NCBI RefSeq assembly: GCF_001425745.1
Contig: NZ_LMDF01000001.1
Coordinates: 1-64,000 of the forward strand
Reading direction: 5' to 3'
Length of the DNA stretch: 64,000 bases
DNA from: Caulobacter sp. Root343
Lineage (GTDB): Bacteria; Pseudomonadota; Alphaproteobacteria; Caulobacterales; Caulobacteraceae
The position numbers and the translations under genes are program-made. Shown here piece after piece: positions 8,709 through 30,586 of the stretch. The first letter of the stretch is position 1; each line of letters opens with the position of its first letter. Below the pieces are notes generated by a model. It searched no databases. It was not told the DNA's origin and worked only from the letters and a program-made list of their open reading frames with translations.

Positions 8709-9037
8709 CGATCGTTCCTCTGGCGGCCTGCGCGGCGCATCTGGCTGGCTTCGTCTCAGCGCGAAGCGTCGGCGCCTTTGCTAGCGGGGTTGGCGCGGCA
8801 ATTCCAACTCTTCGCCGCCGATCGGGCGTTTTTTATTGGTAGCGGTACCAGTCGTCGACGCGGTCGGAAGCGGATTCCGGCTCTCATAAGTAATAAATCT
8901 ATTATATAATGCCTGCGCTTCGGGCGCCGCGCGCCGCCTTCCTTGGCGCTTGTCCTTCCAGCGCGGCCGTGTGGGGCAAGGCGCTGGACAGGGCGGGCGG
9001 AGCACCCGAGCATCGGTTGGCGACCAGAGGGCGGAGC
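8709..9037. promoter_or_regulatory. Divergent promoter region maeB / hiuH-xdh operon
   Basis: This 329-bp stretch has no credible gene; the short open frames across it have no family features. Most is G+C rich, but 8881-8911 is a sharp A+T island (CATAAGTAATAAATC through TATATAATG) that contains the putative purine operator at 8890-8905 and is the likely promoter for hiuH-xdhAB. The 130-base leader after it holds no obvious riboswitch. Confidence 0.5.
8890..8905 (+). promoter_or_regulatory. Putative purine-regulon operator, site 1
   Basis: GTAAT-AAATCT-ATTAT is a palindromic site with 5-bp arms and a 6-bp centre. It fits the GTAAG-N6-CTTAC pattern seen at 18732, 18920 and 30454. The adjacent sequence CATAAGTAA recurs exactly at site 2 and, on the opposite strand, at site 4. 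It overlaps the A+T-rich likely promoter of hiuH-xdhAB-xdhC-guaD. TetR-type repressors commonly bind palindromes of this size, so the TetR gene at 24371-25060 is the obvious candidate. This is inference. Confidence 0.5.
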
Positions 9038-9385
9038 ATGAGCGGATTGACGACCCATATCCTCGACCAGGCGGCCGGAAAGCCGGCGGCCGGGGTCGTG
9101 GTGCGGGTATCGCGTCGCGAGGGCTCGAACCTCGCCCCGGTGGCGGAACTCCGCACGGACGCCGACGGTCGCGCGCGGCTTGTCGCCGGCGAGGACCTGA
9201 AGGTCGGCGGCTATCGCCTGGAGTTCGCGATTGGCGAGCACTTCAAGGCGTCCGGCCTGCCGGTTACCGACCCGCCGTTCCTGGACGTCGTGGTCATCGA
9301 TTTCGCCGTGTCGAACGTCGAGCAGCATTGGCACGTGCCGCTGCTGGTCTCGCCGTACGGCTATTCCACCTACCGGGGCAGCTGA
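9038..9385 (+). CDS. hiuH: 5-hydroxyisourate hydrolase (transthyretin-like)
   Basis: This 115-residue protein is of full family length and hydrolyses 5-hydroxyisourate, the product of urate oxidation, to OHCU. The family signature is complete: N-terminal LTTHILDQAAGKPA with its conserved His, the Arg-containing central strand (YRLEFAIGEHF), and the C-terminal signature HVPLLVSPYGYSTYRGS. The start ATG 9038 follows AGAGGGCGGAG; a frame open 130 bases further upstream has no family homology. It is the first gene of hiuH-xdhA-xdhB-xdhC-guaD, and its stop TGA shares its last base with the xdhA ATG, so the two are translationally coupled. Confidence 0.95.
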   Translation: MSGLTTHILDQAAGKPAAGVVVRVSRREGSNLAPVAELRTDADGRARLVAGEDLKVGGYRLEFAIGEHFKASGLPVTDPPFLDVVVIDFAVSNVEQHWHVPLLVSPYGYSTYRGS

Positions 9386-10839
9386 TGGGCGAGACGATCA
9401 GGTTCCTGCTGGACGGCGAGGTCCATGAGGTGCGCGGGGCCAACCCGACGACGACCTTGCTCGAGCACCTGCGCGGCCCGATGCGGCGCACCGGAACCAA
9501 GGAGGGCTGCGCCGAGGGTGACTGCGGCTCGTGCACGGTGCTGGTCGGCGAGCCGGACGGCGAGGGGCCCGCGGGGCGCGTCGCCTGGCGGGCGGTCAAC
9601 AGCTGCATCCAGTTCCTGCCTATGCTGCACGGCAAGGCGTTGATGACGGTCGAGAGCCTGGCCAAAGGTGGCGCGCTGCATCCGGTGCAGCAGGCCATGG
9701 TCGACAAGCACGGCTCGCAGTGCGGCTTCTGCACGCCGGGCATCGTGATGTCGTTGTATGGCCGCGCGATCGCGGCCAAGGGCGCGGCCGCCCCGGTCGG
9801 CGAGGTGCTGGCTGGCAACCTGTGCCGCTGCACCGGCTATGGCCCGATCATCGAGGTGGCCAAGGGCGTCGCGGCCGAGCCCGCGCCGGCGGTCGACCTG
9901 TCCCCCCTCCACGACGAGACCATGCTGGACCTCAGCTTCGAGGATCCGATCCACGGCGTCACGCGCCGCTGGCTGGCGCCGCGCACGGTCGACGAGTTGG
10001 CCCAGGTCTACGAAGCCCATCCCGATGCGACGATCGTGGCCGGCGCCACCGATGTCGGCCTATGGGTCACCAAGCAGCGGCGGCCGCTGCCGATCCTGAT
10101 CAGCGTGTCCGAAGTCGCCGAACTGAAGGCGCTGGAAGAGACGGCCGAGGCCTTACGGATCGGCGCGGGCGTCCGCTATGTCGACGCCGTCGAGGCGATC
10201 TCGAAACTCTATCCCGACTTGGGCGCGATGATGCGGCGCCTGGGCTCGACCCAGGTGCGCAACAGCGGCACGATCGGCGGCAACATCGCCAACGGCTCGC
10301 CGATCGGCGACATGCCGCCGGCCCTGATCGCGGCGGGCGCGACCCTGGTCCTGCGGAAGGGGAGTGAGCGGCGCGAGATGCCGCTGGAAGACTTCTTCCT
10401 CGACTACGGCAAGCAGGATCGCCGGCCCGGCGAGTTCGTCGAGGCGGTGATCGCGCCGAAGCTCGACGCCAGCCGGATCTTCAAGGTTTTCAAACTGTCC
10501 AAGCGTTTCGACCAGGACATCTCGGCGGTCTGCGGGGCGTTTTCGCTGGCGGTGAAGGACGGCGTGGTCGCCGACGTCCGCATCGCCTTCGGCGGCATGG
10601 CCGGCACGCCCAAGCGGGCGAAGGCCTGCGAAGCGGCGCTGGTCGGCCAGCCCTGGACCGAGGCTACGGTCGAGGCCGGGATGGCGGGGCTCGATATCGA
10701 CTACAAGCCGATGAGCGACATGCGCGCCTCGGCGGCCTACCGGTCGCTGACCGCGCGGAATATGCTGCGCAAGGTGTTCCTGGAGAGCCAGGACCCGGAT
10801 GCGGAGACCCGTATCGTTCCGGAGAGCGCGCATGGCTGA
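9385..10839 (+). CDS. xdhA: Xanthine dehydrogenase small subunit (2Fe-2S and FAD)
   Basis: This 484-residue protein carries both iron-sulfur clusters and FAD of xanthine dehydrogenase. Ferredoxin-type cysteines are in GCAEGDCGSCTVL near residue 40. The second cluster uses CGFCTPGIVM and NLCRCTGYGPI near residues 115-155. The FAD domain follows, with AGATDVGLWV near 210 and GGNIANGSPIGD near 300, then the CO-dehydrogenase flavoprotein C-terminal domain. Electrons from the molybdenum subunit pass through it to NAD. It overlaps hiuH by one base and the next gene by 8 bases. Length and domain order match bacterial XdhA. Confidence 0.96.
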   Translation: MGETIRFLLDGEVHEVRGANPTTTLLEHLRGPMRRTGTKEGCAEGDCGSCTVLVGEPDGEGPAGRVAWRAVNSCIQFLPMLHGKALMTVESLAKGGALHPVQQAMVDKHGSQCGFCTPGIVMSLYGRAIAAKGAAAPVGEVLAGNLCRCTGYGPIIEVAKGVAAEPAPAVDLSPLHDETMLDLSFEDPIHGVTRRWLAPRTVDELAQVYEAHPDATIVAGATDVGLWVTKQRRPLPILISVSEVAELKALEETAEALRIGAGVRYVDAVEAISKLYPDLGAMMRRLGSTQVRNSGTIGGNIANGSPIGDMPPALIAAGATLVLRKGSERREMPLEDFFLDYGKQDRRPGEFVEAVIAPKLDASRIFKVFKLSKRFDQDISAVCGAFSLAVKDGVVADVRIAFGGMAGTPKRAKACEAALVGQPWTEATVEAGMAGLDIDYKPMSDMRASAAYRSLTARNMLRKVFLESQDPDAETRIVPESAHG

Positions 10840-13168
10840 CTCCGCCGCCACCGTCGTCGAGACCACCCCGTTCCAGGGTGTCCACGCGCCTCTGCCGCAT
10901 GACAGCGCCGTCCGCCACGTCGCGGGCTCGGCGATCTATATCGACGACATTCCCGAGCCGGTCGGCCTGCTGCACGTGCACCTGGGCATGAGCGCCCGGG
11001 CGCACGCGCGTATCACCAAGCTGGATCTCTCGGCCGTCCGCGCCGCCCCGGGCGTGGTGCTGGTGCTGACCGCCGCCGACATTCCCGGCGAGAACGACGT
11101 CAGCCCGGTAATCCACGACGACAAGCTGTTCGCTGACGGCGAGGTCTATTGCGTCGGCCAGAGCCTGTTCGCCGTCGCCGCCACCTCGATCGCCGCCGCC
11201 CGCGCCGCCGCTGGCCTGGCCGTGGTCGCGTACGAGGACCTGCCGGCCGCTGTCGACATCGCCGCCGCCCGCGACATGGACCTGAAGATCGAGACCTCGC
11301 AGCGCATGGCGCGCGGCGACGCCCAGGCCGCGCTCGCCGCCGCGCCGCGCCGGGTCCAGGGCCAGTTCGCGATCGGCGGCCAGGACCACTTCTACCTTGA
11401 GGGCCAGGTGGCCCTGGCCACGCCGGGCGAGGACGGCGACGTCCACATCTGGTCGTCGACCCAGCATCCCAGCGAAGTCCAGCACCTGGTCGCTCGCGTG
11501 CTGGATCGCCCGCACACCGCCGTCACCGTCGAGATCCGCCGCATGGGCGGGGGCTTCGGCGGCAAGGAGACGCAAGCCTCGCTATTCGCCGCCGCCGCCG
11601 CCCTGGTGGCGGTGAAGACCGGCCGCCCGGCCAAGTGCCGTCCGGATCGCGACGAGGACATGGTCATGACCGGCAAGCGGCACGACTTCGAGGCCGCCTA
11701 CGACGTCGGCTTCGACGACGACGGAAGGCTGACGGGGCTGTCCCTGGAGTTGGCCTCGCGCTGCGGGGCGACGACCGACCTGTCGCTGGCGATCAACGAT
11801 CGGGCGATGTTCCACGCCGACAACACCTACTACCTGCCGGCGGTCGAGATCATCTCGCACCGGTTCAAGACCCACACCGTCTCGAACACCGCCTTCCGGG
11901 GCTTCGGCGGACCGCAGGGCATGCTGGCCATCGAGCGGGTGATGGACGCGGTCGCCGCCGCCACCGGCCTGGACCCGCTGGAGGTGCGCCGCCGCAACCT
12001 CTATGGCGGGGAGGGGCGTAACCTGACGCCCTACCACCAGACGGTGGAGGACAATGTCGCTCCGCAGCTGATCGACGAGCTGGCGGCGTCCTGCGCCTAC
12101 GACGCGCGTCGCCGCGAGATCGAGGCGTTCAACCGCGCCAGCCCGGTGCTGAAGAAGGGCATCGCCCTGACGCCGGTGAAGTTCGGCATCTCGTTCACGA
12201 CCACCCACCTGAACCAGGCCGGCGCCCTGATCCACCTCTACGCCGACGGCTCGATCATGCTGAACCATGGCGGCACCGAGATGGGGCAGGGGCTGCACGT
12301 CAAGGTCGCCCAGATCGTCGCCCAGGCCTTCCAGGTCGACATGGCCCGGATCAAGGTGACCTCGACCGTCACCGACAAGGTGCCCAACACCTCGGCCACC
12401 GCCGCCTCGTCGGGCGCGGACCTCAACGGCATGGCGGCCCTGAACGCGGCCGAGACGATCAAGGCGCGGCTGGTGGCGTTCGCCGCCAAGAAGTGGGGCG
12501 TCGAACCGCACGAAGTGGCCTTCACCCCCGACGGCGTCCGTGTCGGCGGCGAAACCTTCGAGTTCGGCTGGTTCGCCCGACAAGCCTATCTGGCGCGGAT
12601 CTCGCTATCGGCCACCGGCTTCTACGCCACGCCCAAGATCCACTATGACCGCGCCACCCATACCGGCCGGCCGTTCTTCTACTTCGCCTATGGCGCGGCC
12701 TGCAGCGAGGTGCTGATCGACACCCTGACCGGCGAGATGAAGGTCACCCGCGCCGACATCCTGCACGACGTCGGCAAGTCGCTGAACCCGGCCATCGACC
12801 TGGGCCAGATCGAAGGGGGCTTCATCCAGGGGATGGGCTGGCTGACGACCGAGGAGCTTGTCTATGACGGGGAGGGCCGTCTGCGGACCCACGCGCCTTC
12901 GACCTACAAGATTCCGACCTGCGGCGATCGGCCGGCGCATCTGGATGTCCGGCTGTGGAAGGCGGGGCGCAATGTCGAGGCGACCGTGCACCGCTCCAAG
13001 GCCGTGGGCGAGCCGCCGCTGATGCTGGCGATCTCGGTGTACAGCGCGATCAATCACGCCGTGGCGAGTGTCGGCGACTACAAGGTTCTGCCGCGGCTCG
13101 ATGCGCCGGCGACGCCCGAGGCGATCCTGATGGCGTGCGAGGATGTGAAGGCGAGGACTCATGTTTAG
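10832..13168 (+). CDS. xdhB: Xanthine dehydrogenase molybdopterin subunit
   Basis: This 778-residue catalytic subunit oxidises hypoxanthine and xanthine to urate at the molybdenum cofactor. Visible features are the first aldehyde-oxidase/xanthine-dehydrogenase hammerhead domain (GSAIYIDDIPEP), molybdopterin-binding RRMGGGFGGKETQ near residue 235, AFRGFGGPQGM near 355, HGGTEMGQGLHVKV near 485, and the C-terminal KAVGEPPLMLA with the catalytic glutamate. ATG 10832 lies 8 bases inside xdhA. A palindromic repeat of about 115 bp separates it from xdhC. The length is typical for bacterial XdhB. Confidence 0.96.
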   Translation: MADSAATVVETTPFQGVHAPLPHDSAVRHVAGSAIYIDDIPEPVGLLHVHLGMSARAHARITKLDLSAVRAAPGVVLVLTAADIPGENDVSPVIHDDKLFADGEVYCVGQSLFAVAATSIAAARAAAGLAVVAYEDLPAAVDIAAARDMDLKIETSQRMARGDAQAALAAAPRRVQGQFAIGGQDHFYLEGQVALATPGEDGDVHIWSSTQHPSEVQHLVARVLDRPHTAVTVEIRRMGGGFGGKETQASLFAAAAALVAVKTGRPAKCRPDRDEDMVMTGKRHDFEAAYDVGFDDDGRLTGLSLELASRCGATTDLSLAINDRAMFHADNTYYLPAVEIISHRFKTHTVSNTAFRGFGGPQGMLAIERVMDAVAAATGLDPLEVRRRNLYGGEGRNLTPYHQTVEDNVAPQLIDELAASCAYDARRREIEAFNRASPVLKKGIALTPVKFGISFTTTHLNQAGALIHLYADGSIMLNHGGTEMGQGLHVKVAQIVAQAFQVDMARIKVTSTVTDKVPNTSATAASSGADLNGMAALNAAETIKARLVAFAAKKWGVEPHEVAFTPDGVRVGGETFEFGWFARQAYLARISLSATGFYATPKIHYDRATHTGRPFFYFAYGAACSEVLIDTLTGEMKVTRADILHDVGKSLNPAIDLGQIEGGFIQGMGWLTTEELVYDGEGRLRTHAPSTYKIPTCGDRPAHLDVRLWKAGRNVEATVHRSKAVGEPPLMLAISVYSAINHAVASVGDYKVLPRLDAPATPEAILMACEDVKARTHV

Positions 13169-13285: not shown

Positions 13286-14302
13286 ATGAGGAACTGGGCT
13301 CGCGAGGCCTTGGCCAGGCTGGATGCGCATGATGAAGCGGCGCTGGTCACCGTCCTGGCCACCGAAGGCTCGGCCCCGCGCGAGGCCGGGACCAAGATGG
13401 TCGTCTGGCGCGGCGGCCAGTCCGGCACGATCGGCGGCGGCAATCTGGAGCACCGCGCCGCCGACCAGGCGCGGCGGATGCTGGAAGGCGGCCAAGTCCA
13501 CTTCGCGATCCAGGACTATCCGCTGGGTCCGCTGCTGGCCCAGTGCTGCGGCGGCCGGGTGCGGCTGTTCCTGGAGCGTTTGAACGACAACAGCCGCGAC
13601 TGGCTGACCGAGGCCGCCAAGCGGATGGACGCGGCCCAGCCGTTCGAGGTCCGCACCCGCTTCGACCCCGGCGCCCTGAGCAAGACCATCGCCCCGATCC
13701 TGGCCACCGACGCCGAGGGCCCCTCCGTCTCTCTGGCCGGCGCGTCCGCCAGCGCGCGCGGGGTCCGGCCTGACCTGGGCGACGTGTTGGTCGAGCGCGC
13801 CGACGCCCCGCGCCCGCCACTGCTGCTGTTCGGGGCCGGTCATGTCGGCCAGGCCGTCGCCAAGGCCTTCGAGCCGCTACCCTTCCGCCTGTCCTGGTAC
13901 GACAGCCGGCCGGAGACCGCCGACATCGGCGGCGTCCGCGTCGCCGAGGCGGCCGAGATGGCCGCCGCGGCCATGGGCGCCAGCTCCGACGCCTATGGCC
14001 TGGTGATGACCCATGACCATGCCCTGGACTACGCCCTGGTCTCGGCCGGCCTGGCCGGCGGCGGCTTTACATACCTCGGCGTCATCGGCTCGAAGACCAA
14101 GCGCGCCCGATTCATGAGCCGGCTGCGCGACGATGGCTTCTCGGAAGTCGTGCTGACCCGCCTGACGTGCCCCATCGGCCTGCCGCATCTGAAGAGCAAA
14201 GCGCCGGAGGTGATCGCGGTTTCGGTGGCCGCCGACCTCCTGATGCGCCAGGAAGCGGCGCGGATCCGCAACGACGAAGGCCTGACCCGTGCAAGCATTT
14301 AG
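13286..14302 (+). CDS. xdhC: Xanthine dehydrogenase accessory protein XdhC
   Basis: This 338-residue protein binds molybdenum cofactor, protects it and delivers it to the XdhB subunit. An N-terminal XdhC/CoxI domain carries SAPREAGTKMVV and GGGNLEHRAADQARR. A C-terminal Rossmann domain begins LLLFGAGHVGQAVAKAF near residue 177 and has FTYLGVIGSKTKRARF near 265, both typical of XdhC. ATG 13286 is preceded by GGGAGAGGGAG, which belongs to the palindromic repeat. Its 3' end overlaps guaD by 14 bases. Being next to xdhAB and guaD confirms the role. Confidence 0.94.
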   Translation: MRNWAREALARLDAHDEAALVTVLATEGSAPREAGTKMVVWRGGQSGTIGGGNLEHRAADQARRMLEGGQVHFAIQDYPLGPLLAQCCGGRVRLFLERLNDNSRDWLTEAAKRMDAAQPFEVRTRFDPGALSKTIAPILATDAEGPSVSLAGASASARGVRPDLGDVLVERADAPRPPLLLFGAGHVGQAVAKAFEPLPFRLSWYDSRPETADIGGVRVAEAAEMAAAAMGASSDAYGLVMTHDHALDYALVSAGLAGGGFTYLGVIGSKTKRARFMSRLRDDGFSEVVLTRLTCPIGLPHLKSKAPEVIAVSVAADLLMRQEAARIRNDEGLTRASI

Positions 14303-15572
14303 AGCGTCGATCCTCCACCTGCTGGAGGACCCGACGAGGAACGCGGAGGCGGTCGCCTTCCACGACGACGGCCTGCTGTTGGTCGAGGACGGCCGCGTGG
14401 TCGCTTGCGGCGCCTATGCCGAGCTGTCGCCGTTGCTGGGCGATGCGCCGGTCGACGACCTGACCGGCCATCTGATCACGCCGGGCTTCGTCGACACCCA
14501 TATCCACTTCCCGCAGGTCGACGTCATCGCCGCCCACGGCAAGCAGCTGCTGGACTGGCTGGAGCAGCATACTTTCCCAGCCGAAAAGGCCTTCGCCGAC
14601 CCGAAGCACGCGGCCGACACCGCGGCCTTCTTCATCGACGAGCTGCTGCGCAACGGCACCACGACGGCCCTGGTGTTCGGCTCGGTGCACAAGGTCTCGG
14701 TCGACGCCCTGTTCGCCGAAGCCTTCGACCGCGACATGCGGCTGATCGCCGGCAAGTCGCTGATGGACCGCAACGCGCCCGACGGTCTGACCGACACGGT
14801 CGAGAGCAGCCGCGCCGACATGGAGGCCCTGATCGCCGACTGGCACGGCAAGGGGCGCCTCGGCTACGCGGTCACCCCGCGCTTCGCGATCAGCTGCAGC
14901 GACGAGCAGCTGGCCATGGCCGGTGAGGTGCTGGCCGCCCATCCCGACGTCTGGATGCAGACCCATCTCTCCGAGAACCTGCACGAGATCAAGGAGACGG
15001 CCCGGCTGTTTCCCGCCGCCAAAGACTATCTGGACGTCTACGACCGTTTCGGCCTGCTGCGCGAACGCTCGGTCTTCGCCCACTGCGTCCACCTGAAGGG
15101 CGAGGCCTTCCAGCGGATGGCCGCCAAGGGCGGGGCGGCGGCCTTCTGCCCGACCTCGAACCTGTTCCTGGGCTCGGGCCTGTTCCCGCTGGAGGAGGCC
15201 TGTGCGCTGGGGGTCAAGGTCGGCATGGGCACTGATGTCGGGGCCGGCACGACCTTCTCGATCCTCCATACCCTGGGCGAGGCCTACAAGGTCGGCCAGC
15301 TGCGCGGCGACGCGCTGGACCCGTTCCACGCGCTGTACCTGGCGACCCTGGGCGGGGCGCGGGCGCTGGACCTGGACGACAAGATCGGCAACCTCGCGCC
15401 AGGCAAGGAGGCTGATTTCGTGGTGCTGGACCTGGCCGCGACCCCGCTGATGGCGCGGCGGCTGGCCGGGGCCAAGCGCCTCGAGGACCGACTGTTCGCG
15501 CTGACGGTGCTGGGGGATGACCGCGTGGTGGCGCGGACCTATTTGGCGGGCGTGGAGCGGTACAGGCGCTAA
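14289..15572 (+). CDS. guaD: Guanine deaminase
   Basis: This 427-residue protein deaminates guanine to xanthine, feeding XdhAB. It is an amidohydrolase: the metal-binding HIHFPQ motif follows TPGFVDT near residue 65, further zinc ligands are the histidines in MQTHLSE and FAHCVHL, and the catalytic aspartate is in GMGTDVGAGT near 320. The GuaD-type stretch HGKQLLDWLEQHTFPAE is present. The start is GTG 14289, inside the 3' end of xdhC. It ends the operon; a repeat element follows and the next gene is convergent. Confidence 0.95.
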   Translation: MQAFRASILHLLEDPTRNAEAVAFHDDGLLLVEDGRVVACGAYAELSPLLGDAPVDDLTGHLITPGFVDTHIHFPQVDVIAAHGKQLLDWLEQHTFPAEKAFADPKHAADTAAFFIDELLRNGTTTALVFGSVHKVSVDALFAEAFDRDMRLIAGKSLMDRNAPDGLTDTVESSRADMEALIADWHGKGRLGYAVTPRFAISCSDEQLAMAGEVLAAHPDVWMQTHLSENLHEIKETARLFPAAKDYLDVYDRFGLLRERSVFAHCVHLKGEAFQRMAAKGGAAAFCPTSNLFLGSGLFPLEEACALGVKVGMGTDVGAGTTFSILHTLGEAYKVGQLRGDALDPFHALYLATLGGARALDLDDKIGNLAPGKEADFVVLDLAATPLMARRLAGAKRLEDRLFALTVLGDDRVVARTYLAGVERYRR

Positions 15573-15686: not shown

Positions 15687-16652
15687 TTAAGCCGCCCCCA
15701 TCGTCTCCGCGTACAGCTTCAACAACCGGTCCCCATCCACGGCCACCGTCGCCGCCTGGATCGGTTGGTCATCCCAGGCCGACGGCCCGAACAGCTCGCC
15801 CTCGACCTTCTGGCAGGTCTGGCCCAGGGCAACGCCCTCGGTCACCACCCGCACCGAGCCGCGACGCACGGTGAACAGGGTCGGGTCGATCACGAACGCC
15901 ACCGCCGCGGCGTCGTGGACGCAGCAGCCGACGATGCCGTCGCGGCCGCCGTAGAAGGCGGCGTAGGGCTTGGAGATCTCATTGAGGAACACGCCGGCGT
16001 CGCCGCCCGACGCAGCCAGGGCTTCCATGTATTGCGGGGTCATCACCACCTGGGTGGTCACATCCAGGCTGACGGCGGTGAGGTTCCAAGGCGCGGTGAA
16101 CACTTGGTCGGCGGCTTCCGGGTCGTTCCAGATATTAGCCTCGGCCACGGGCGTGACATTGCCCGGCTTGCCGGCCACGCCGAACGCGCCGCCCATGATC
16201 ACCACCGACTTCAGCAGGGTCGCGACCTCGGGATCGGCCTTCAGGGCCAGGACCAGGTTGGTCAGCGGGCCGACGGCGCACAGCACCACCTCGCCCGGAT
16301 ACTGGCGGGCCAGGTCGATGATCGCCTGGTGGGCCGGCTTGGTCTCGGGTTGGCCCGGAACCAGCCCGGTCAGCTCGACATCGCCCAGGCCGTTCTCGCC
16401 GTGCACGAAGGTCGGCGAGGGATTGCGCGGCCGGGTCAGCGGCTTGTCGGTCCCCTTGTAGACAGGGGCGGTCAGGCCGAAGCGCTGCTTCAGGTAAAGC
16501 GCATTGCGGGTCGTCGTCTCGATGTCGGAATTGCCGAAGATCGTCGTCACCGCGATCAGCTCGAGCGCGGGGCTGGCCTCGATGAACAGCAGCGCCATGG
16601 CGTCGTCGATGCCGGGATCAGTGTCGAAGATGATCTTGGTCGGAGTCGTCAT
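15687..16652 (-). CDS. Purine or ribonucleoside hydrolase (IUNH family)
   Basis: This 321-residue protein hydrolyses the N-glycosidic bond of nucleosides to free base plus ribose. The N-terminal calcium-binding signature DTDPGIDDAMAL is intact, followed by TTIFGNSDIETTTRNAL. GPLTNLVLAL lies near the middle, and the conserved metal-binding Asp and active-site His are in CVHDAAAVAF. It is the last gene of hpxX-hpxY-hpxZ-nucleoside hydrolase, starting 9 bases after the hpxZ stop. The context indicates purine nucleosides (inosine, guanosine) as substrates, but sequence alone does not separate purine from pyrimidine specificity. Confidence 0.92.
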   Translation of the reverse strand: MTTPTKIIFDTDPGIDDAMALLFIEASPALELIAVTTIFGNSDIETTTRNALYLKQRFGLTAPVYKGTDKPLTRPRNPSPTFVHGENGLGDVELTGLVPGQPETKPAHQAIIDLARQYPGEVVLCAVGPLTNLVLALKADPEVATLLKSVVIMGGAFGVAGKPGNVTPVAEANIWNDPEAADQVFTAPWNLTAVSLDVTTQVVMTPQYMEALAASGGDAGVFLNEISKPYAAFYGGRDGIVGCCVHDAAAVAFVIDPTLFTVRRGSVRVVTEGVALGQTCQKVEGELFGPSAWDDQPIQAATVAVDGDRLLKLYAETMGAA

Positions 16653-16661: not shown

Positions 16662-17078
16662 CTAGCGCTTTTCTTCTTGTGACGCGAGGCGCTGGTCGGC
16701 CCCGCCTTGCATCAACGAAACATGGGCCGAGGCGACCTTCCAGCCGTCCTCGGTGCGGATCCAGGTCTGGCTCTGGCGGCCGATCTTGCCGGTGTCGTCG
16801 CGGCGGAACTCGACATTGGCGACGGCGAAGTCGGCGCCGAAGGTGGTGATCTGTGTCCGTAGCCGCGTGCGCGGCGGCGAGCCGCCGGCCCGACCGAGGC
16901 GGAAGGCGGCGATCTCGTCGAAGCTCCAGAGGTTCTCGGCGACACCCAGCCGCACGGTGTGCGGCGCGTTCCAGAAAGCGCCGTCCAGCGCCGCGACGTC
17001 ATTGCTCATCAGCGCCGTCTCGTAGGCGTCGACCAAGGCGGTCAGCTCCGCCAGCACATCGGGATCGTTGACGATCAT
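16662..17078 (-). CDS. hpxZ: HpxZ/AtzH-like protein (oxalurate or cyclic-amide catabolism)
   Basis: This 138-residue protein has a SnoaL/NTF2-like fold of the AtzH/HpxZ type (DUF3225). The N-terminal DVLAELTALVDAYETALMSND and the central LDGAFWNAPHTVRLGVAEN are the most characteristic stretches. In Klebsiella hpxZ sits in the oxalurate gene set of purine catabolism, and AtzH accompanies the amidase AtzE; its exact biochemical role is not settled. Its ATG overlaps the hpxY stop by 4 bases (ATGA), and hpxX-hpxY-hpxZ here match the atzG-atzE-atzH order. The symbol is by analogy. Confidence 0.82.
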   Translation of the reverse strand: MIVNDPDVLAELTALVDAYETALMSNDVAALDGAFWNAPHTVRLGVAENLWSFDEIAAFRLGRAGGSPPRTRLRTQITTFGADFAVANVEFRRDDTGKIGRQSQTWIRTEDGWKVASAHVSLMQGGADQRLASQEEKR

Positions 17079-18714: not shown

Positions 18715-18731
18715 GCGGCCAGGCTCCATAA

Positions 18732-18747
18732 GTAAGAAAAAACTTCA
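18732..18747 (-). promoter_or_regulatory. Putative purine-regulon operator, site 2
   Basis: GTAAG-AAAAAA-CTTCA on the plus strand matches the GTAAG-N6-CTTAC pattern, with its last two bases swapped. It is preceded by CATAA, giving the same CATAAGTAA string as site 1. It lies just upstream of the hpxX start, where a bound repressor would block the promoter or early elongation. Confidence 0.55.
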
Positions 18748-23540: not shown

Positions 23541-23561
23541 CCTTCCGCAACCTCCGCTGCA

Positions 23562-23592
23562 TCCCTACGTTGACGCTACGTCGGCGTAGGGA
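23562..23592. terminator. Possible terminator hairpin after the RTX gene
   Basis: TCCCTACG and CGTAGGGA form an 8-bp stem around a 15-base loop, 20 bases after the RTX stop codon. No T-tract follows, so it is either a weak or rho-assisted terminator or an inverted repeat in the promoter of the next gene. Confidence 0.4.
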
Positions 23593-23650
23593 CGCGCACC
23601 GCTCCCCGCCAGGCGTCCGGCATGAGTCCGGATCACCGGAGGGAAAGCGT

Positions 23651-24367
23651 ATGAGATCAATCCTGCCCGTCGTCGCCTTGCTGGCGCTGGCCGCCTGTTC
23701 GCCGCAGCCGGCCGAGAAGAAGGCTGACGCGCCGGCCGCCGCGGCGCCGACGACGACCGCGCCCAAGCCGCCCAAGGCCGAGATCCCGGCCGGCGATTAC
23801 ACGCTGGACAAGCACCACGCCACCCTGGTGTTCCGGGTCAACCACCTAGGTTTCTCGAACTACACGGCCGCCTTCGCGGACTTCGACGCCAAGCTGCACT
23901 TCGACCAGAACAATGCCGCCGCCAGTACGCTGGAGGCGACGATCAATCCCAAGTCGCTGACCCTGCCGGCCCCGCCGGAAGGCTTCCTGACCGAGCTGAC
24001 CGGTCCGCAGTGGCTGAATGCGGCGACCTATCCGGCCATCACCTTCAAGTCGACCAAGGTCGAGACGACCGGCCCCGACACCGGCAAGGTGACGGGCGAC
24101 CTGACTCTGCACGGGGTGACCAAGCCGGTGACCCTGGATGTCACCTATAACGGCGGCTATGTCGGCCATCCGATGGACCCGCACGCCCGGATTGGCTTCT
24201 CGGCCAAGGGGACGTTCAAGCGCTCGGACTTCGGCATCGCATTCGGCGTGCCCGCGCCGGGCACGACCATGGGCGTCGGCGACGAGGTCCAGGTCGTGAT
24301 CGAGGCCGAGTTCAGCGGTCCGCCGCTGCCCACAGCGCCGGCCCCGGCCACGCCTCCGGCTCAATAA
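23651..24367 (+). CDS. YceI-family lipoprotein
   Basis: This 238-residue protein has a lipoprotein signal (VVALLALAACSPQ, lipobox Cys near residue 15), an Ala/Pro-rich linker and a YceI lipocalin-like domain from about residue 45. Typical YceI segments are GDYTLDKHHATLVFRVNHLGFSNY, FNDYDA-like DFDAKLHF, TGDLTLHGVTKPVTLDV and ARIGFSAKGTFKRSDFGI. YceI proteins bind polyisoprenoid or other long hydrophobic molecules in the periplasm; the ligand here is unknown. ATG 23651 follows GGAGGGAAAG. It sits by itself between the RTX gene and the convergent tetR gene and looks unrelated to purine breakdown. Confidence 0.9.
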   Translation: MRSILPVVALLALAACSPQPAEKKADAPAAAAPTTTAPKPPKAEIPAGDYTLDKHHATLVFRVNHLGFSNYTAAFADFDAKLHFDQNNAAASTLEATINPKSLTLPAPPEGFLTELTGPQWLNAATYPAITFKSTKVETTGPDTGKVTGDLTLHGVTKPVTLDVTYNGGYVGHPMDPHARIGFSAKGTFKRSDFGIAFGVPAPGTTMGVGDEVQVVIEAEFSGPPLPTAPAPATPPAQ

Positions 24368-24370: not shown

Positions 24371-25060
24371 CTAGCGCGCGCCGCGCGTCAGATAGCCTTC
24401 GAGCAAGGCCAGGGCGTGGTCCAGCCGCGCCCTGCGCCACTCGGGCGCGGTCATGTCGGTGTCCAGGGTCGCCGACAGCGAATAGCCGTTGGCCAGGTGG
24501 AACCGGCTCATGGCGGCGATGGTCACATAGATCTGCACGGGGTCCAGGTCCGGCCCGAACAGGCCTTGGTCCTGGCCGCTCTTGATCAGCTTCTCGATCG
24601 TGCGGCGCAGCGGGAAGGCGGTCTCGGTCACCACCCGCGACTGGGCGGCGAACTTGCCGTGCTGCAGGTTCTCGTTTCGCAGCAGGCCCTCGAAGCGCGG
24701 GTTCTTCTCGAAATAGTCGAAGGTGAAGCGCTGCAGCTCCAGGAAGCCCTCGAGCGGCTTGTCGAAGTCAATCTTCAGCTCGGCCTCGCGAGCCCGCAGG
24801 TCCATGTAGGCGCTTTCGAGGACGGCCATGTACAGGCCCTTCTTGTCCCCGAAGTAGTGGTACAGCATCCGGATGTTGCACTTGGCGGCCTTGACGATCT
24901 TCTCGATCCGGGCCCCGGCGAAGCCGGCTTGAGCGAACTCCTTCAAGGCCGCGGCGAGGATCGCCTTGCGGGTGCGTTCGGCGTTGCGCTTGCGTGGCGC
25001 TCCCCCCGCGGAATCGATGGCGGTCTCGGCCTTGTTCGCGTCCAGGACGGCGTCGGTCAC
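24371..25060 (-). CDS. TetR-family regulator, probable purine catabolism repressor (RutR-like)
   Basis: This 229-residue regulator has a TetR helix-turn-helix near residues 30-75 (RKAILAAALKEFAQAGFAG, then IVKAAKCNIRMLYHYFGDKK). The C-terminal domain resembles that of RutR/YcdC, whose E. coli member senses uracil and thymine and also controls purine catabolism genes. It is the last gene of the allantoate amidohydrolase-pucG-puuE-uraD-puuD operon. GTG 25060 overlaps the puuD stop by 4 bases, like the other junctions here; an in-frame TTG 27 bases upstream is less likely. I infer that it binds the GTAAG-N6-CTTAC sites and responds to a purine intermediate. Confidence 0.88.
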   Translation of the reverse strand: MTDAVLDANKAETAIDSAGGAPRKRNAERTRKAILAAALKEFAQAGFAGARIEKIVKAAKCNIRMLYHYFGDKKGLYMAVLESAYMDLRAREAELKIDFDKPLEGFLELQRFTFDYFEKNPRFEGLLRNENLQHGKFAAQSRVVTETAFPLRRTIEKLIKSGQDQGLFGPDLDPVQIYVTIAAMSRFHLANGYSLSATLDTDMTAPEWRRARLDHALALLEGYLTRGAR

Positions 25061-26244
25061 GGAATCTTGGCCCCCTGCTTGATCCAAGCGCCCAGCTGGG
25101 CGCGTTCCTCTTCGGTCATGCCGGTCTCGTTGCCAAGGGGCATGCTGGTCGAGGCCACCGCGCGCTCGTGGATTTTCGGCGCATAGGCGCGGATATGCTC
25201 AGGCGTGTCGAAGGTCGCGCCAAGCGGCGGGGCCGAGAAGCCGGCGTGGGTCGGCGCGGCGGCGTGGCACATGACGCAGTGCTTCTGAACGATGGCCTGG
25301 GCGGTGGTGAAGGGGACCTGGCGCTCGACCTTGATCGCGTCCTTGGGCTTGGTGCTGGCCACCACCGTGGCGGCGAACACCAGCATGAAGCCGTAGAACA
25401 GGAAGTCGTGCCGGATCTGGCCCAGGTTCTTCAGCAGGAAGAACTGCCGGATCGACACCCCGCCGGCGCTGATCATCGCCAGCAGCAGCCAGCTCAGGGG
25501 ATGGCCGGTGACCAGCGGATAGTGGTTGCTGATCATGATGAAGATGACCGGCAGGGTCATATAGGTGTTGTGGACCGAGCGCTGCTTGCCCATTGCGCCC
25601 AGCCGCGGATCGACTTCGCGGCCGGCCAGCATGTCGGCGACGATCTTGCGTTGGTTGGGGATGATCACCAGGAAGACGTTGGCGACCATGGCCGTTCCGA
25701 TGATCGCGCCCACGTGGATGAAGGCGCCGCGGTCGCTGAACAGCTTGCTTAGGGCGTAGGCCGCGCCGGTGAGGGCTGCGAACCAGACGATCCCGAACCA
25801 GATCCCGTTCTTGCCCAGCGGCGAGCGGCATAGGGCCTCGTAGACCGCCAGCCCGCCGAAGATGAAGGCCAGGCCCGTGGCGATCGCCGCCGGCTGGGTG
25901 AAGGCGTGCTTGGCCGCGTCGATCAGATAGATCGGGGCCTGCCAGTAGTAGAGCACGATCAGCAGGGCGAAGCCCGACAGCCAGGTGGTGTAGGCCTCCC
26001 ATTTGAACCAGTGCAGGTGCTCGGGCATGTGCGCCGGGGCCGTCATGTACTTCTGCGAATGGTAGAAGCCGCCGCCGTGCACGGCCCACAGCTCGCCCTT
26101 GACGCCGTCCTTCTCGGGGACGGGAGGGCGCAGGTTATTGTCCAGCCAGACGAAGTAGAACGAGGCGCCGATCCAGGCGACGCCGGCGATCACGTGCAGC
26201 CACCGCAGACCCAGGTTCAGCCAGCCGGGAAGGTCGTATTCCAT
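25057..26244 (-). CDS. puuD: Membrane urate oxidase PuuD with cytochrome c domain
   Basis: This 395-residue inner-membrane protein oxidises urate to 5-hydroxyisourate and passes electrons to the respiratory chain. About eight hydrophobic segments fill residues 10-300, with the PuuD landmarks WLHVIAGVAWIGASFYFVWLD, WAVHGGGFYHSQKY and MPEHLHWFKWEAYTTW. The C-terminal domain of about 100 residues is a c-type cytochrome: CVMCH gives haem attachment and SMPLGNETGMT the axial methionine. It replaces the soluble uricase, which is absent. It lies between uraD and tetR, and HiuH and UraD process its product. Confidence 0.95.
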   Translation of the reverse strand: MEYDLPGWLNLGLRWLHVIAGVAWIGASFYFVWLDNNLRPPVPEKDGVKGELWAVHGGGFYHSQKYMTAPAHMPEHLHWFKWEAYTTWLSGFALLIVLYYWQAPIYLIDAAKHAFTQPAAIATGLAFIFGGLAVYEALCRSPLGKNGIWFGIVWFAALTGAAYALSKLFSDRGAFIHVGAIIGTAMVANVFLVIIPNQRKIVADMLAGREVDPRLGAMGKQRSVHNTYMTLPVIFIMISNHYPLVTGHPLSWLLLAMISAGGVSIRQFFLLKNLGQIRHDFLFYGFMLVFAATVVASTKPKDAIKVERQVPFTTAQAIVQKHCVMCHAAAPTHAGFSAPPLGATFDTPEHIRAYAPKIHERAVASTSMPLGNETGMTEEERAQLGAWIKQGAKIP

Positions 26245-26245
26245 C

Positions 26246-26767
26246 TTATTCGGTCACCGCGTCGAGCAGTCGAAGCTTGGAGATCAGGCCGATCTGCTGG
26301 ATCGCCTCGGCGATCTCGGCCGTCTGGTCGTTCGTTAGGCGCGCCTGCATGGCGGCCAGGATCGAAGTTTTGTCGTTCAGCCGCACGGCGATGATGAACG
26401 GGAAGCCGAAGCGCTCGGCATAGGCGGCGTTCAGGTCGTGAAAGCGGGCGAACTCCTCGGGGCTCAGTCGGTCGAGGCCGGCGCTGGCCTGTTCGGCGTT
26501 GCTCTCGGCGGTCAGCGCCTTGGCGATCGCCGCCTTGCCGGCCAGCTCCGGGTGGGCGCGGATCAGGGCCAGCTTGTCGGCGGTCGAGGCGGCGTCTAGC
26601 ACGGCCATCATCGCGCCGTGCAGGCGCTCGACGCTGGCGAACGGCCGCGCGTCCCAGGCGCGCTCGACCACCCAGGGGGAAAGCTCGAACGCGAACCCCA
26701 GGGCGGTGGTGAAGCCCGTCCGGTTCATGCTGTTGAGGCGGGCCAGGGTCAGGGGCGGGGCGCTCAT
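26246..26767 (-). CDS. uraD: OHCU decarboxylase
   Basis: This 173-residue protein decarboxylates 2-oxo-4-hydroxy-4-carboxy-5-ureidoimidazoline to (S)-allantoin. The family signature is visible in FELSPWVVERAWDARPF, in RAHPELAGKAA with the catalytic His, in GLDRLSPEEFARFHDLNAAY, and in the C-terminal FGFPFIIAVR. The length is typical. Its ATG overlaps the puuE stop by 4 bases, and its stop lies just before the puuD start. Confidence 0.95.
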   Translation of the reverse strand: MSAPPLTLARLNSMNRTGFTTALGFAFELSPWVVERAWDARPFASVERLHGAMMAVLDAASTADKLALIRAHPELAGKAAIAKALTAESNAEQASAGLDRLSPEEFARFHDLNAAYAERFGFPFIIAVRLNDKTSILAAMQARLTNDQTAEIAEAIQQIGLISKLRLLDAVTE

Positions 26768-27678
26768 GCCTTGGCCTCGTAAGGATGGGTCGCGATCCAG
26801 TGGCGAGCGATGTCGATCCGCTTGGCCACCCAGACCTTGTCGTGCTGGGTGATGTGATCCAGGAACCGCCGCAGCGCGCCGATCCGGCCGGGCTTGCCGA
26901 CCACGCGGCAGTGCAGGCCGATGCTCATCATCTTCGGCGCGGTCTCGCCTTCCAGATAGAGGGCGTCGAAGGCGTCGCGCAGATAGGTGAAGAACTGTTC
27001 GCCAGTGTTGAAGCCCTGGGCCGCCGTGAAGCGCATGTCGTTGGCTTCCAGGGTGTAGGGGACGATCAACTGGGCGCGGCCGTGCTGGTCGTCCCAGTAC
27101 GGCAGGTCGTCGGCGTAGCTGTCGGCGTCGTAGACGAAGCCGCCTTCCTGGGCGACCAGGCGCGCGGTGTTGGGGCTGGTGCGGCCTTGGTACCAGCCCA
27201 GCGGCCGCTCGCCCGTCAACCGCGTCTGGATCTCGATGGCCTGCTGGATGTGCTCCAACTCCTGCTCTTGCGTGAAGTGCTGGTAGTCGATCCAGCGATA
27301 GCCATGGCTGGCGATCTCCCAGCCCGATTTCATCATCGCCTCGACGGCGTCCGGGTGGCGCTCCATGGCCTGGGCGACGCCGAACACAGTCAGCGGCAGG
27401 CCGAACTCCTCGAACAGCCGCCGGATGCGCCAGAAGCCGGCGCGAGAGCCGTATTCGTAGAGACTCTCCATCGACATGTTGCGCATGCCCTGGATGGGCT
27501 GGGCGCCGACCATCTCGGACAGGAAGAACTCGCTGACCGGGTCGCCATGCAGGATGGAGCGCTCGGCCCCTTCCTCGTAGTTGAGGACGAACTGCACGGC
27601 CACGCGGGCGCTGTTCGGCCACTGAGCGTGCGGTGGATGCTCGCCATAGCCAATCAGGTCGCGGGGGTAGGCGCTCAT
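26764..27678 (-). CDS. puuE: Allantoinase PuuE (polysaccharide deacetylase-like)
   Basis: This 304-residue metal-independent allantoinase hydrolyses (S)-allantoin to allantoate. It has a NodB-type fold: YGEHPPHAQWPNSARVAVQF at the N-terminus, SMESLYEYGSRAGFWR near residue 75, SHGYRWIDYQ near 130, and IGLHCRVVGKPGRI near the C-terminus, all PuuE-typical. The length matches Pseudomonas PuuE. ATG 27678 lies inside an 8-bp direct repeat that flanks an inserted palindromic element, which now separates it from pucG. Confidence 0.95.
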   Translation of the reverse strand: MSAYPRDLIGYGEHPPHAQWPNSARVAVQFVLNYEEGAERSILHGDPVSEFFLSEMVGAQPIQGMRNMSMESLYEYGSRAGFWRIRRLFEEFGLPLTVFGVAQAMERHPDAVEAMMKSGWEIASHGYRWIDYQHFTQEQELEHIQQAIEIQTRLTGERPLGWYQGRTSPNTARLVAQEGGFVYDADSYADDLPYWDDQHGRAQLIVPYTLEANDMRFTAAQGFNTGEQFFTYLRDAFDALYLEGETAPKMMSIGLHCRVVGKPGRIGALRRFLDHITQHDKVWVAKRIDIARHWIATHPYEAKA

Positions 27679-27680
27679 GC

Positions 27681-27818
27681 CTTCCGCCCCCTCCGGGGGC
27701 GGACGACCGCGCGGCGCGCGGTCAGGTGGGGGCAAGTGCGGTGAGTGTTTTGGGCATTTGCCCCCTCCGCGCCTGCGGCGCTCCTCCCCCGGAGGGGGAA
27801 GAAGGTGACGATCCCCCC
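27681..27818. mobile_element. Palindromic repeat element with 8-bp target-site duplication in the pucG-puuE junction
   Basis: This 138-bp G+C-rich element is flanked on both sides by GCTCATGC (27673-27680 and 27819-27826). On the coding strand this reads GCATGAGC, the ATGA stop/start overlap itself. It contains the modules also seen at 15590 (CGCCCCCTCCGGGGGCGG, GACCGCG..CGCGGTCAGGTG, and TCCCCCGGAGGGGGA after GCGCCTGCGGCGCTCC). The direct repeat and the module content suggest a small non-autonomous mobile repeat. It creates a 49-codon frame, 27824 to 27675 on the minus strand, with ATGA overlaps to pucG upstream and puuE downstream. Confidence 0.75.
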
Positions 27819-27820
27819 GC

Positions 27821-29053
27821 TCATGCGAACACCTTCGCCGCCGCGTCGACACCAGCGCCGGCGGGGAAGCCGAAGCCTTCCCAGCGCAGCACCGCTTCCA
27901 GGGCGGCCAGGGTTTGCAGCACCGCGTGCTTGCGGGCGTTCACGCCCATGGTTCCGATGCGCCAGATCTTGCCGGCCAGGGGACCGAAGGCCGCGCCGAT
28001 CTCGATCTCGAACTCGGTGCGCATCCGCGTCTTGACCCGGTCGTAGTCGACGCCGGCGGGCGCGATCACACCGGTGACATTGGTCATCTTGTGGGCCTGG
28101 TCGCCATAGACGGTCAGGCCCAGCGCCTCGATGCCGGCGACCATCGCCGCGCCGGCCTGGGCGTGGCGGGCGAACCTCGTGTCGAGGCCTTCCTCCAGCA
28201 CGATCCGCGCGCACTCGCGGGCGGCGAACAGCATGCTGGCCGCCTCGGTGTGGTGGTTCAGGCGTTTGTCGGACCAGTAGTCCATGATCATCGCCAGGTC
28301 GAAATAGTTGGAGGCGATCCGACGGCCGTTGCCCATCGCGCCGGGTCCCGCGAGGCCCTTCTCGACATGGCGGCGGGAGAAGATGTGGTCGGCGGCGCGG
28401 TCGCTGATCGTGATCGGGGCCGAGCCCGAGGGACCGCCCATGCACTTCTGCAGGCCGGCGGTGACGATGTCGGCCTGCCACTTATCCACAGGCACGCTCA
28501 TGCCGCCCAGGGTGGCGGTGGCGTCGACATAGAGCAGGGCGTCGTGGCGGCGGCAGATCTCGCCGATGGCCTCGATCGGCTGGGCGATGGTGGTCGAGGT
28601 GTCGCCATGCACGCAGGCGACCAGGCGCGGCTTCACGCGCTTGACGGCGTCCTCGACGGCCTGCGGGTCGACGACCCGGCCCCATTCGCCCTCGACGAAG
28701 GTGACCTTGGCGTCGCAGCGCTCGGCGATCTCGGCCAGCAGCAGACCGAAGCGCCCGGCATTGACCACCACCACGTCGTCGCCGGGCGAGAGCGTCGAGA
28801 CCAGCGCCGCCTCGATCCCGGCCCGCGAGGTGCCGTCGACCACGAAGGTCCAGCGGTTGGCGGTCTGGAACACGCCGCGATACAGCGCCATGACCTCGTT
28901 CATGTAGCCGGTGAACTCGGGGTCGAACTGGCCCAGCAGCTGCACCGACATGGCCCGCAGCACGCGCGGGTGCACGTTAATCGGGCCCGGGCCCATCAGC
29001 AGGCGGGCGGGGTGGTCGAGTTCCTTGAAGGTGTCGATGGCGTCTTGGGTCAT
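27821..29053 (-). CDS. pucG: (S)-ureidoglycine-glyoxylate aminotransferase (PucG-like)
   Basis: This 410-residue PLP-dependent class V aminotransferase has an N-terminus (LLMGPGPINVHPRVLRAM) typical of the alanine-glyoxylate/PucG group. VVDGTSRAGIEAALVS lies near residue 70, the PLP-binding aspartate is in LLYVDATATLGGM, and the Schiff-base lysine is in TAGLQKCMGGPSGSAP near 200. PucG-type enzymes convert ureidoglycine and glyoxylate to oxalurate and glycine. Allantoate amidohydrolase is encoded just upstream with a 4-bp ATGA overlap, which supports this over a serine- or alanine-specific role. Confidence 0.9.
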   Translation of the reverse strand: MTQDAIDTFKELDHPARLLMGPGPINVHPRVLRAMSVQLLGQFDPEFTGYMNEVMALYRGVFQTANRWTFVVDGTSRAGIEAALVSTLSPGDDVVVVNAGRFGLLLAEIAERCDAKVTFVEGEWGRVVDPQAVEDAVKRVKPRLVACVHGDTSTTIAQPIEAIGEICRRHDALLYVDATATLGGMSVPVDKWQADIVTAGLQKCMGGPSGSAPITISDRAADHIFSRRHVEKGLAGPGAMGNGRRIASNYFDLAMIMDYWSDKRLNHHTEAASMLFAARECARIVLEEGLDTRFARHAQAGAAMVAGIEALGLTVYGDQAHKMTNVTGVIAPAGVDYDRVKTRMRTEFEIEIGAAFGPLAGKIWRIGTMGVNARKHAVLQTLAALEAVLRWEGFGFPAGAGVDAAAKVFA

Positions 29054-30297
29054 GCGCGTTCGCGTCGTTCTAGCTTGTCGATGAAATGGAGCATGGCCTG
29101 AGCCGCCAAGGCGCAGTCGGCCTCGGTGACGGCCTCGGCCGGGTTGTGGCTGATCCCGCCTTCGCAGCGGATGAACAGCATGGCCACCGGGCACAGCCGC
29201 GCCATCACCATGGCGTCGTGGCCGGCGCCCGAGGGCAGGCGTCGGGCCGGCAGCGAGAGATCGGCCAGGGCCTCGCCCAGCAGGTCCATCAGCGATGGAT
29301 CGCAGGGGCTTTCGGCCAGGGCCTGCATCAGCTGGATCTGCGCCTTCAGGCCGCGTGCGCCGACGATGGCGTGGATCTCGACACAGACCGCGTCGGCGGC
29401 GGCGTCGCGGGTCGCGGAGGTCTCGGCGCGGATGTCCATCGAGAACTCGACCGCGCCGGGAATGACATTGAACGCGCCGGGCAGGGCGGTCACCCGGCCG
29501 ACGGTGCCGACCAGGCCGTCCTTTCCGGCGCGACAGATCCGCTCCAGGGCCAGGATGCATTCGGCGGCGGCGGGCCCCGGATCCTCGCGCAGGTTCATTG
29601 GCGTGGTGCCCGCATGGCCGGCGGTTCCCTCGATGCGGACCATAAGCCGCTTCTGGGCGGCGATGGCGGTAACCACGCCCAGCGCCAGGCCCTCGGCCTC
29701 CAGCACCGGGCCCTGCTCGATATGCGCCTCGAGGAAGGCCAGGACGTCCTCGGGCCTCCGCGCGGCCGAGGCGATGCCGACCGGGTCTCCGCCGAAAGCG
29801 GTCAAGGCCTCGGCTACGGTGATCCCCTCGGCGTCCTTCATGTCCAGGGCGGTGGTGTCCAGCACGCCGGCGATGGCGCGGCTGCAGCTCATCGAGGCGG
29901 GGAAGCGCGAGCCCTCCTCGTCGCCGAACGCCACGGCCTCGATGGCGAAGGGCAGGCGGCGGCCGGCGGCGTTCAGGGCCTCGACCACGTCGATCCCCAG
30001 CATGATGCCCAGCGGCCCGTCATAACGCCCGCCGTTGCGGACGCTGTCGATGTGCGAGCCGATGATCAGAGCCTTGGCCCCGGGGGCCTCGCCCTCGTAG
30101 CGGCCGATCAGGTTGGCGGCGGCGTCGCGGCGGACGCTCATGCCTGCGCCCTTCATCCAGTCGGTCAGGGTGGTCAGGGCGGCTTCGTGGGCGGGCGTCA
30201 GGAACCGGCGCGTCAGCTGGCCCTCGATCTCGCTATAGGGCGCCACGCCCAGCAGGTCGCAGCGCGCCTTGGCCCTTACCCCGATGTCGATCGTCAC
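29050..30297 (-). CDS. Allantoate amidohydrolase (M20 family)
   Basis: This 415-residue binuclear metallopeptidase-like hydrolase would convert allantoate to ureidoglycine, CO2 and ammonia. Visible features are IGSHIDSVRNGGRYDGPLG with the metal His and Asp near residue 80, FGDEEGSRFPASMSCSRA with the catalytic Glu pair near 125, HIEQGPVLE near 195, and the dimerisation lid GTAGHAGTTPMNLREDP near 220. These fit the AllC/HyuC subfamily; N-carbamoyl-amino-acid hydrolase is the alternative, and the operon argues for allantoate. I chose GTG 30297, with GAAGG 5 bases upstream. It is the first gene of the minus-strand purine operon. Confidence 0.9.
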   Translation of the reverse strand: MTIDIGVRAKARCDLLGVAPYSEIEGQLTRRFLTPAHEAALTTLTDWMKGAGMSVRRDAAANLIGRYEGEAPGAKALIIGSHIDSVRNGGRYDGPLGIMLGIDVVEALNAAGRRLPFAIEAVAFGDEEGSRFPASMSCSRAIAGVLDTTALDMKDAEGITVAEALTAFGGDPVGIASAARRPEDVLAFLEAHIEQGPVLEAEGLALGVVTAIAAQKRLMVRIEGTAGHAGTTPMNLREDPGPAAAECILALERICRAGKDGLVGTVGRVTALPGAFNVIPGAVEFSMDIRAETSATRDAAADAVCVEIHAIVGARGLKAQIQLMQALAESPCDPSLMDLLGEALADLSLPARRLPSGAGHDAMVMARLCPVAMLFIRCEGGISHNPAEAVTEADCALAAQAMLHFIDKLERRERA

Positions 30298-30586
30298 GCT
30301 CACCTTCGATTCGACCCCCGCATCGTTCGATCGCCGAGACTCCAGGCCTAGCAGGAGAGACCTGAAAGCCTTGCCCGGCAACCGTCCCCGCGCTTCAATG
30401 GCGCGCGGGCGCCTCGACAAGCGCCATCCGCGAGCGGCGGCGCCTAAGCCTAAGTCATAAACTACTTACTTATGCGGAGCGAGGGGCGTCTGTTCCAAGG
30501 CGACGGGGGCGGGCGGGACCCTGAAACCCTCTTCTCCCGGGCTCCGCGATACGGCAGTTTCGCCGACCAAGGGGGCGCGATCGGAA
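30298..30586. promoter_or_regulatory. Divergent promoter region of the allantoate operon and a secreted-protein gene
   Basis: This 289-bp region holds the putative purine operator at 30454-30469 within an A+T-richer patch, followed on the minus strand by a leader of about 155 bases before the allantoate amidohydrolase start. The remaining sequence is featureless to me. Confidence 0.5.
30454..30469 (-). promoter_or_regulatory. Putative purine-regulon operator, site 4
   Basis: GTCAT-AAACTA-CTTAC fits the same spacing as sites 1-3, with one arm perfect and the other degenerate. On the minus strand the flanking string is CATAAGTAAGTAG, sharing CATAAGTAA with sites 1 and 2. It lies upstream of the allantoate amidohydrolase operon. 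Confidence 0.5.

Follow-up and report, generated by a model that had tools for sequence, protein, structure and literature searches.

The question raised by this locus is whether the genes for purine breakdown in Caulobacter sp. Root343 answer to one regulator and, if so, which protein this is and how far its control reaches. The window, by which we mean the whole stretch of DNA that was analysed (64,000 nucleotides), starts with 5.5 kb of rRNA and tRNA genes. Further in lies a purine island, whose gene identities we confirmed with family models (NCBIfam and Pfam). A sequence-only reading of the window had proposed that a 16-bp palindrome, GTAAG-N6-CTTAC or a close variant, stands before every transcription unit of this island. 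All four of the 16-mers it named are present where it placed them and with the letters it gave. However, the sites of relatives show that the word is longer than this, a 20-bp symmetric AAGTAAG-N6-CTTACTT, and we call the four 20-bp candidate operators S1 to S4.

The first purine unit is on the plus strand and begins with hiuH, which encodes hydroxyisourate hydrolase. Its open frame begins at 8909, but the start is probably at 9038 (gene 9038-9385) because the family match begins there, and this puts S1 (8888-8907, plus strand, 4 mismatches; AAGTAATAAATCTATTATAT) about 130 bp upstream of the gene. A TATAAT-like word, read by eye at 8905-8910, overlaps the right end of S1. Behind hiuH on the same strand are xdhA (9385-10839), xdhB (10799-13168), xdhC (13286-14302) and guaD (14289-15572), each of which scores above the cut-off of its NCBIfam equivalog.

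The second unit runs on the minus strand. It contains a nucleoside hydrolase gene (15687-16652) and hpxZ (16662-17078), both identified with family models, then hpxY, an AtzE-type amidase gene that extends from 17075 and whose family match begins near 18460, and an 82-aa frame (18466-18714) at the position of hpxX. This frame had no Pfam match at E 0.001, so the name hpxX comes from its position only. S2 (18730-18749, minus strand, 3 mismatches) lies about 16 bp upstream of where this frame starts. Next to it is S3 (18918-18937, plus strand, 1 mismatch), with the ATG of an fmdA-like gene (18939-19889, plus strand) 2 bp past its last base. The product belongs to the acetamidase/formamidase family (Pfam FmdA_AmdA) and scores under the NCBI formamidase cut-off.

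The fourth unit, the allantoate operon (25057-30420, minus strand), holds genes for an M20 amidohydrolase (29050 to about 30315, with the start placed by eye) and a class-V aminotransferase (27821 to about 29020), followed by puuE (26764-27678), uraD (26246-26767) and puuD (25057-26244), a urate oxidase gene with a cytochrome c domain. S4 (30452-30471, minus strand, 2 mismatches) is about 140 bp before the M20 gene. A TetR-family regulator gene (24371-25087, minus strand) overlaps puuD and is, as had been noticed from the letters, the last gene of the operon.

The proposal that every transcription unit has a site holds for these four purine units, but not for two other genes inside the island, an RTX-repeat gene (20112-23540) and a yceI gene (23519-24367), which have none. 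The RTX frame is 1142 aa long and has 16 matches to RTX calcium-binding repeats and no other Pfam domain. This place looks like a variable insertion spot because the size of the gap differs among relatives, from less than 100 bp in one (L062) to about 6 kb in another (L066).

Within the window, the loose form of the motif is not above chance. GTAAG-N6-CTTAC with up to 3 mismatches has 70 matches, against 75 +/- 9 expected from shuffles, so on their own the four sites do not reach significance and we rejected the window alone as a source of it. There are two perfect matches to GTAAG-N6-CTTAC in the window, one of which (2990) is inside the 23S rRNA gene. We also built a sequence model of the word from the four window sites and the sites of relatives. 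Its matches in the window at E below 0.1 are just the places of S1 to S4; it ranks sites well, with crude E-values. Since the model contains S1 to S4, the weight of the argument rests on conservation and on co-occurrence with tetR.

Conservation of the sites and co-occurrence with tetR

In 44 loci around relatives of the TetR protein, the number of matches with up to 3 mismatches, overlaps included, was 90, compared with 6.8 after base shuffling, and they are mostly at the same genes. The counts for S1 to S4 given next cover loci whose upstream DNA was present. The S4 site occurs in 26/26 relatives' loci of the allantoate operon, and the S1 site in all 30 of the hiuH loci tested, own genome included; these were the best 30, and hiuH is present in 45 of the 61 genomes of the genus. 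The S3 site was found in 20 of 22 relatives, the two without it being L064 and L087. These three counts allow up to 4 mismatches. At the hpxX position, where up to 3 mismatches were allowed, 15 of the 21 loci of relatives that contain hpxY have the S2 site.

The sites also stand out from the DNA on either side of them. After collapsing promoters that were more than 90% identical, identity over the 14 core columns was 0.99 for S4 (flanks 0.33/0.62), 0.97 for S1 (0.36/0.62) and 0.88 for S3 (0.39/0.58). We left S2 out of this comparison because a search based on hpxY can pick S3 instead. Conservation at orthologous promoters had been set as a test of the palindrome, and it held at the allantoate operon, hiuH, fmdA and hpxX. 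Nine of these loci have an extra site, either between hpxZ and the nucleoside hydrolase gene or behind hpxZ at the end of the contig. In L074, the sole annotated locus with such an extra site, the gene behind it encodes a TonB-dependent receptor.

The lack of enrichment of the loose motif in the window is what one would see if the four palindromes were a chance similarity in AT-rich promoter stretches. Set against this are the 90 matches over a shuffled 6.8, the conservation just described and the dependence on tetR, and we give chance next to no probability.

The TetR protein itself has clear domain matches, with 44.0 bits for PF00440 TetR_N (cut-off 24) and 109.8 bits for PF17938 TetR_C_29 (cut-off 26.2). 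We rejected the label RutR for it, as it scores 45.8 bits against a cut-off of 368 for TIGR03613 and 39.9 against 230 for NF011584; the earlier suspicion that this regulator is distinct from RutR was correct. Among the island proteins scanned with family models there was no second regulator. The named records closest to this TetR come mostly from Caulobacter.

Across the 61 genomes of the genus, 39 have an orthologue of this TetR, and all 39 have matches to the sequence model at E <= 1. A 40th TetR match (G178) is 34% identical and was not counted as an orthologue. In the 22 genomes without an orthologue, there is a single weak match in one genome (G169, E 0.88). The association has a Fisher p of 2e-15 with phylogeny ignored, the split of 39/39 against 1/22 probably reflects one or a few phylogenetic events, and the model behind these counts includes sites from tetR-bearing genomes. 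A cleaner control is given by these genes in TetR-less genomes, where most have no site; for the hiuH regions the count there was 0/8 at up to 4 mismatches. The co-occurrence of motif and gene backs the earlier choice of this TetR as the regulator. In one Caulobacteraceae MAG, two contigs (L094 and L095) each have a tetR of this clade, with identities of 67 and 63%, close to hpx-type genes and palindromes.

Sites elsewhere in the genome

A strict symmetric form of the word, AGTMAK-N6-MTKACT, which we picked after the sites were seen, occurs exactly at just 3 places in 5.36 Mb. These are S4, a site 47 bp before a gene for a NupC-type nucleoside transporter and a site 18 bp before a gene for a 2OG-Fe(II) oxygenase (L180:12070-13020, on own-genome contig 8, from 229069). 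Frequent random occurrence of the word, which would have counted against it, is thus not what the genome has in the strict form. With up to 2 mismatches there are 210 matches genome-wide against 369 in the reversed control, so the weak matches carry no meaning; those such as C1:247883, C6:673027, C8:198933, C10:112105 and C11:138039 were not counted as members of the regulon.

The oxygenase site is strictly conserved. It is present in all 30 loci tested, own genome included (26 at 2 mismatches and 4 at 3), has a core identity of 0.93 against 0.57/0.33 in the flanks, and is 3-22 bp before the start in 29 of the 30. In the TetR-less genomes it was found in 0/20 at up to 3 mismatches, these being 20 of the 21 among them that have the gene. 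Of the solved structures, 3oox comes nearest to the oxygenase (E 3e-197); it was deposited just as a putative 2OG-Fe(II) oxygenase, and behind it come an ethylene/succinate-forming enzyme and thymine dioxygenase. The protein with this operator is likely a nucleobase oxygenase. The nupC site is limited to a lineage, with 15/30 loci having it 46-50 bp before the start, and it is missing in part of the genus. In TetR-less genomes, 2/21 have a match at up to 4 mismatches, which is near the shuffled rate (9/200 shuffles).

The oxygenase sites also bear on the idea that the palindromes work in the mRNA, as hairpins or in ribosome binding, instead of as DNA operators. S3 and the sites of several oxygenase genes read GTAAG-AAGGAA-CTTAC, so that their loop has AAGGA a few bases upstream of the ATG. 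But other oxygenase sites have GGCCCG loops in the same place, S1 and S4 stand 130-150 bp upstream, and the half-site letters are common to unrelated genes and missing where tetR is missing. We regard a role in the mRNA as highly improbable, and treat the palindromes as DNA sites in what follows.

When the sequence model was run on the own genome (E <= 10), it returned just S4, which is its top-scoring site in the genome, S1, S3 and one more site, 107 bp upstream of a TonB-dependent receptor gene on contig 8 (L180:1709-4171); S2 was below reach at E 10. Homologues of the contig 8 stretch that also have the site are present in eight genomes including the own one, in which the gene is annotated. 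A second TonB-dependent receptor gene, on contig 5 (L184:4061-6448), has a candidate site 40 bp before it. Both receptors are candidates for outer-membrane uptake of purines or nucleosides. An AMP nucleosidase gene is preceded by a site in four relatives with homologous stretches (the gene is annotated in L169). These scattered genes likely serve the same purine diet as the island. The original idea of a purine-island regulon is supported as a regulon, but its bounds were too narrow.

We made one side observation at these promoters. The word AGGCGCC is exactly 6 bp behind S4 (30439-30445, minus strand) in the window and in 25 of 26 relatives (L061-L093), and in several genomes it touches the nupC operator. 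It may be a promoter mark or the site of a second factor.

The wider TetR clade

More distant relatives of the protein also have the palindrome beside them in a number of cases. In a Sphingomonadaceae locus (TetR about 54% identical), it precedes paired genes for a nucleoside hydrolase and an adenosine deaminase, and this stretch also contains tetR and a purine cluster. In two Hyphomicrobiales loci (L097 and L098; TetR 44-46% identical), a palindrome with one mismatch is directly before tetR and is shared with a divergent transporter operon, which in L098 is of the PnrA/Bmp nucleoside-binding type. The recognition helix AKCNIRMLYHYF is the same in 16 aligned TetR proteins, save one residue in L096. 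The sameness of the helix is partly selected, because the search seeds include KCNIRMLY, while the palindrome beside the helix was not selected.

Other loci are without the site. L324 has a TetR that is 59% identical and purine genes on the same 19 kb, and no site was found there at up to 4 mismatches. At up to 3 mismatches, none was found in L100 or in ten family-level TetR loci (L051-L060, 1.5 kb on each side). Six wider regions around more distant TetRs gave a site in 3/6. We rejected membership in the same regulon for the relatives that are 33-36% identical (L054-L058 and L060), as they have no palindrome nearby and their helix differs.

Class-wide, 56 of 385 genomes have a TetR relative at E <= 1e-25. 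Among the best 30 of the clade loci, leaving out the window's own, 19 have an NKRM or NKRL helix. AGTAA-N8-TTACT is near tetR at up to 1 mismatch in 13 of these 19, and in all 13 the left half-site is followed by C. None was found near tetR in six more distant relatives with an SKRMIYYYF helix. Five class-level loci with CNIRM, CNMRM or CNTRM have it in just two cases (L299 and L300); in these, one side has G and the other has C, and the sites of L099 and L101 have C on one side as well.

It could be argued that another transcription factor, which happens to share the distribution of this TetR in Caulobacter, uses the palindrome. Phylogeny is a confounder of the link between tetR and the motif inside the genus, and L324 has the TetR and the purine genes and no site. 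However, in L097 and L098 of the Hyphomicrobiales a tetR of this clade has the palindrome immediately upstream, and the NKRM/NKRL sister subclade has AGTAA-N8-TTACT nearby in most loci, where the SKRMIYYYF relatives lack it. We consider a different factor improbable and take TetR as the protein that very likely reads the word.

The purine role seems narrower than the half-site. In L099 and L101-L104, the TetR is 39-43% identical, and about 6 kb ahead of its gene is an xdh-like pair or fusion that has palindromes at its head; L102, the annotated one, has a fused molybdenum hydroxylase and then a TRAP transporter. Ten neighbour proteins scanned in the wider clade included no recognised purine enzyme, one amidase and three transporter binding proteins. 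Since these neighbours are mostly non-purine, the half-site seems to be a property of the TetR clade and the purine role that of the branch to which the protein of the window belongs. With somewhat less than even confidence, we propose a broader picture in which this TetR would be the type member of a widespread, uncharacterised alphaproteobacterial clade whose members read AGTAA half-sites at a spacing of eight bases, where the base after the half-site tracks the helix (mostly G/T for CNIRM and C for NKRM; exceptions exist). In Caulobacter it would have become a global regulator of purine nutrition, the 3oox-type oxygenase would oxidize nucleobases (perhaps purines) and one or two TonB receptors would take up purines or nucleosides.

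Proposed control of purine use and known systems

The sites, their conservation, their co-occurrence with tetR and their position at the genes are observed. From them we infer that the TetR protein (24371-25087) physically binds AAGTAAG-N6-CTTACTT and represses a genome-wide purine regulon and its own gene, and that a metabolite of the purine pathway releases it; we hold this to be very likely. A TetR dimer would sit on the palindrome, on top of the promoters or a little downstream of them, and block hiuH-xdhABC-guaD, hpxXYZ-nucleoside hydrolase, fmdA and the allantoate operon. At S4 it would also repress its own gene, a negative feedback. It would act as well on nupC, on the 2OG oxygenase that resembles thymine dioxygenase and, probably, on one or two of the TonB-dependent receptors. 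A compound of the pathway, perhaps urate, xanthine, hypoxanthine, allantoin or similar to judge by the genes present, would free the DNA, and uptake and breakdown would come on together. The purine pathway as a whole probably hangs on this one switch.

TetR proteins are mostly repressors, which speaks against a reading in which this TetR mainly activates, or answers a ligand from outside the purine pathway such as a signalling nucleotide. In addition, only 2-22 bp separate S3 and 29 of the 30 oxygenase sites from the start codon downstream, and an activator could scarcely function there. The range of distances from site to start, from 2 to about 180 bp, counts in favour of this reading. On the side of another ligand, XdhR of Streptomyces, a TetR-family regulator of xdh, answers ppGpp and not hypoxanthine, according to PMC6627660. 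We think this reading unlikely, and prefer repression lifted by a purine-pathway compound.

With this finding, an uncharacterised TetR in a major model genus gains a DNA target and a likely role, and the purine route, all the way from uptake to allantoate, is predicted to be under joint control. The finding hints at substrates for orphan genes, namely the 3oox-type oxygenase, two TonB receptors and NupC. The pattern of helix and half-site across the clade is a natural data set for the study of changes in TetR specificity.

It is already known that TetR proteins control xanthine dehydrogenase (XdhR) and pyrimidine use (RutR); to our knowledge few TetR regulons for purine breakdown have been described, XdhR being one. 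Our literature search did not find a paper on the palindrome or on a purine TetR regulator of Caulobacter. HucR and PecS (MarR family) and the purine regulators of Klebsiella and Bacillus (HpxR and HpxS, PucR, AllR) turn purine breakdown on when purines are present; they do the same task with other protein families and operators. RutR, a TetR regulator of pyrimidine utilisation, likewise has a nucleobase-catabolism regulon and is distant kin in the DNA-binding part. It differs in that the Caulobacter protein is below the RutR equivalog cut-offs and has TetR_C_29 as its C-terminal domain. The operator probably differs too, the one of RutR before rut and pyrimidine genes being TTGACC..GGTCAA and the word at the promoters here AAGTAAG-N6-CTTACTT. 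Another close case is XdhR, which belongs to the TetR family and controls xanthine dehydrogenase genes in Streptomyces coelicolor and Agrobacterium fabrum, according to PMC6627660. Both regulators are TetR-type, and the xdh operon is a predicted target here too (S1). XdhR is known for xdhABC, antibiotic regulators and ppGpp, whereas the predicted targets of the Caulobacter TetR extend from nucleoside uptake to allantoate.
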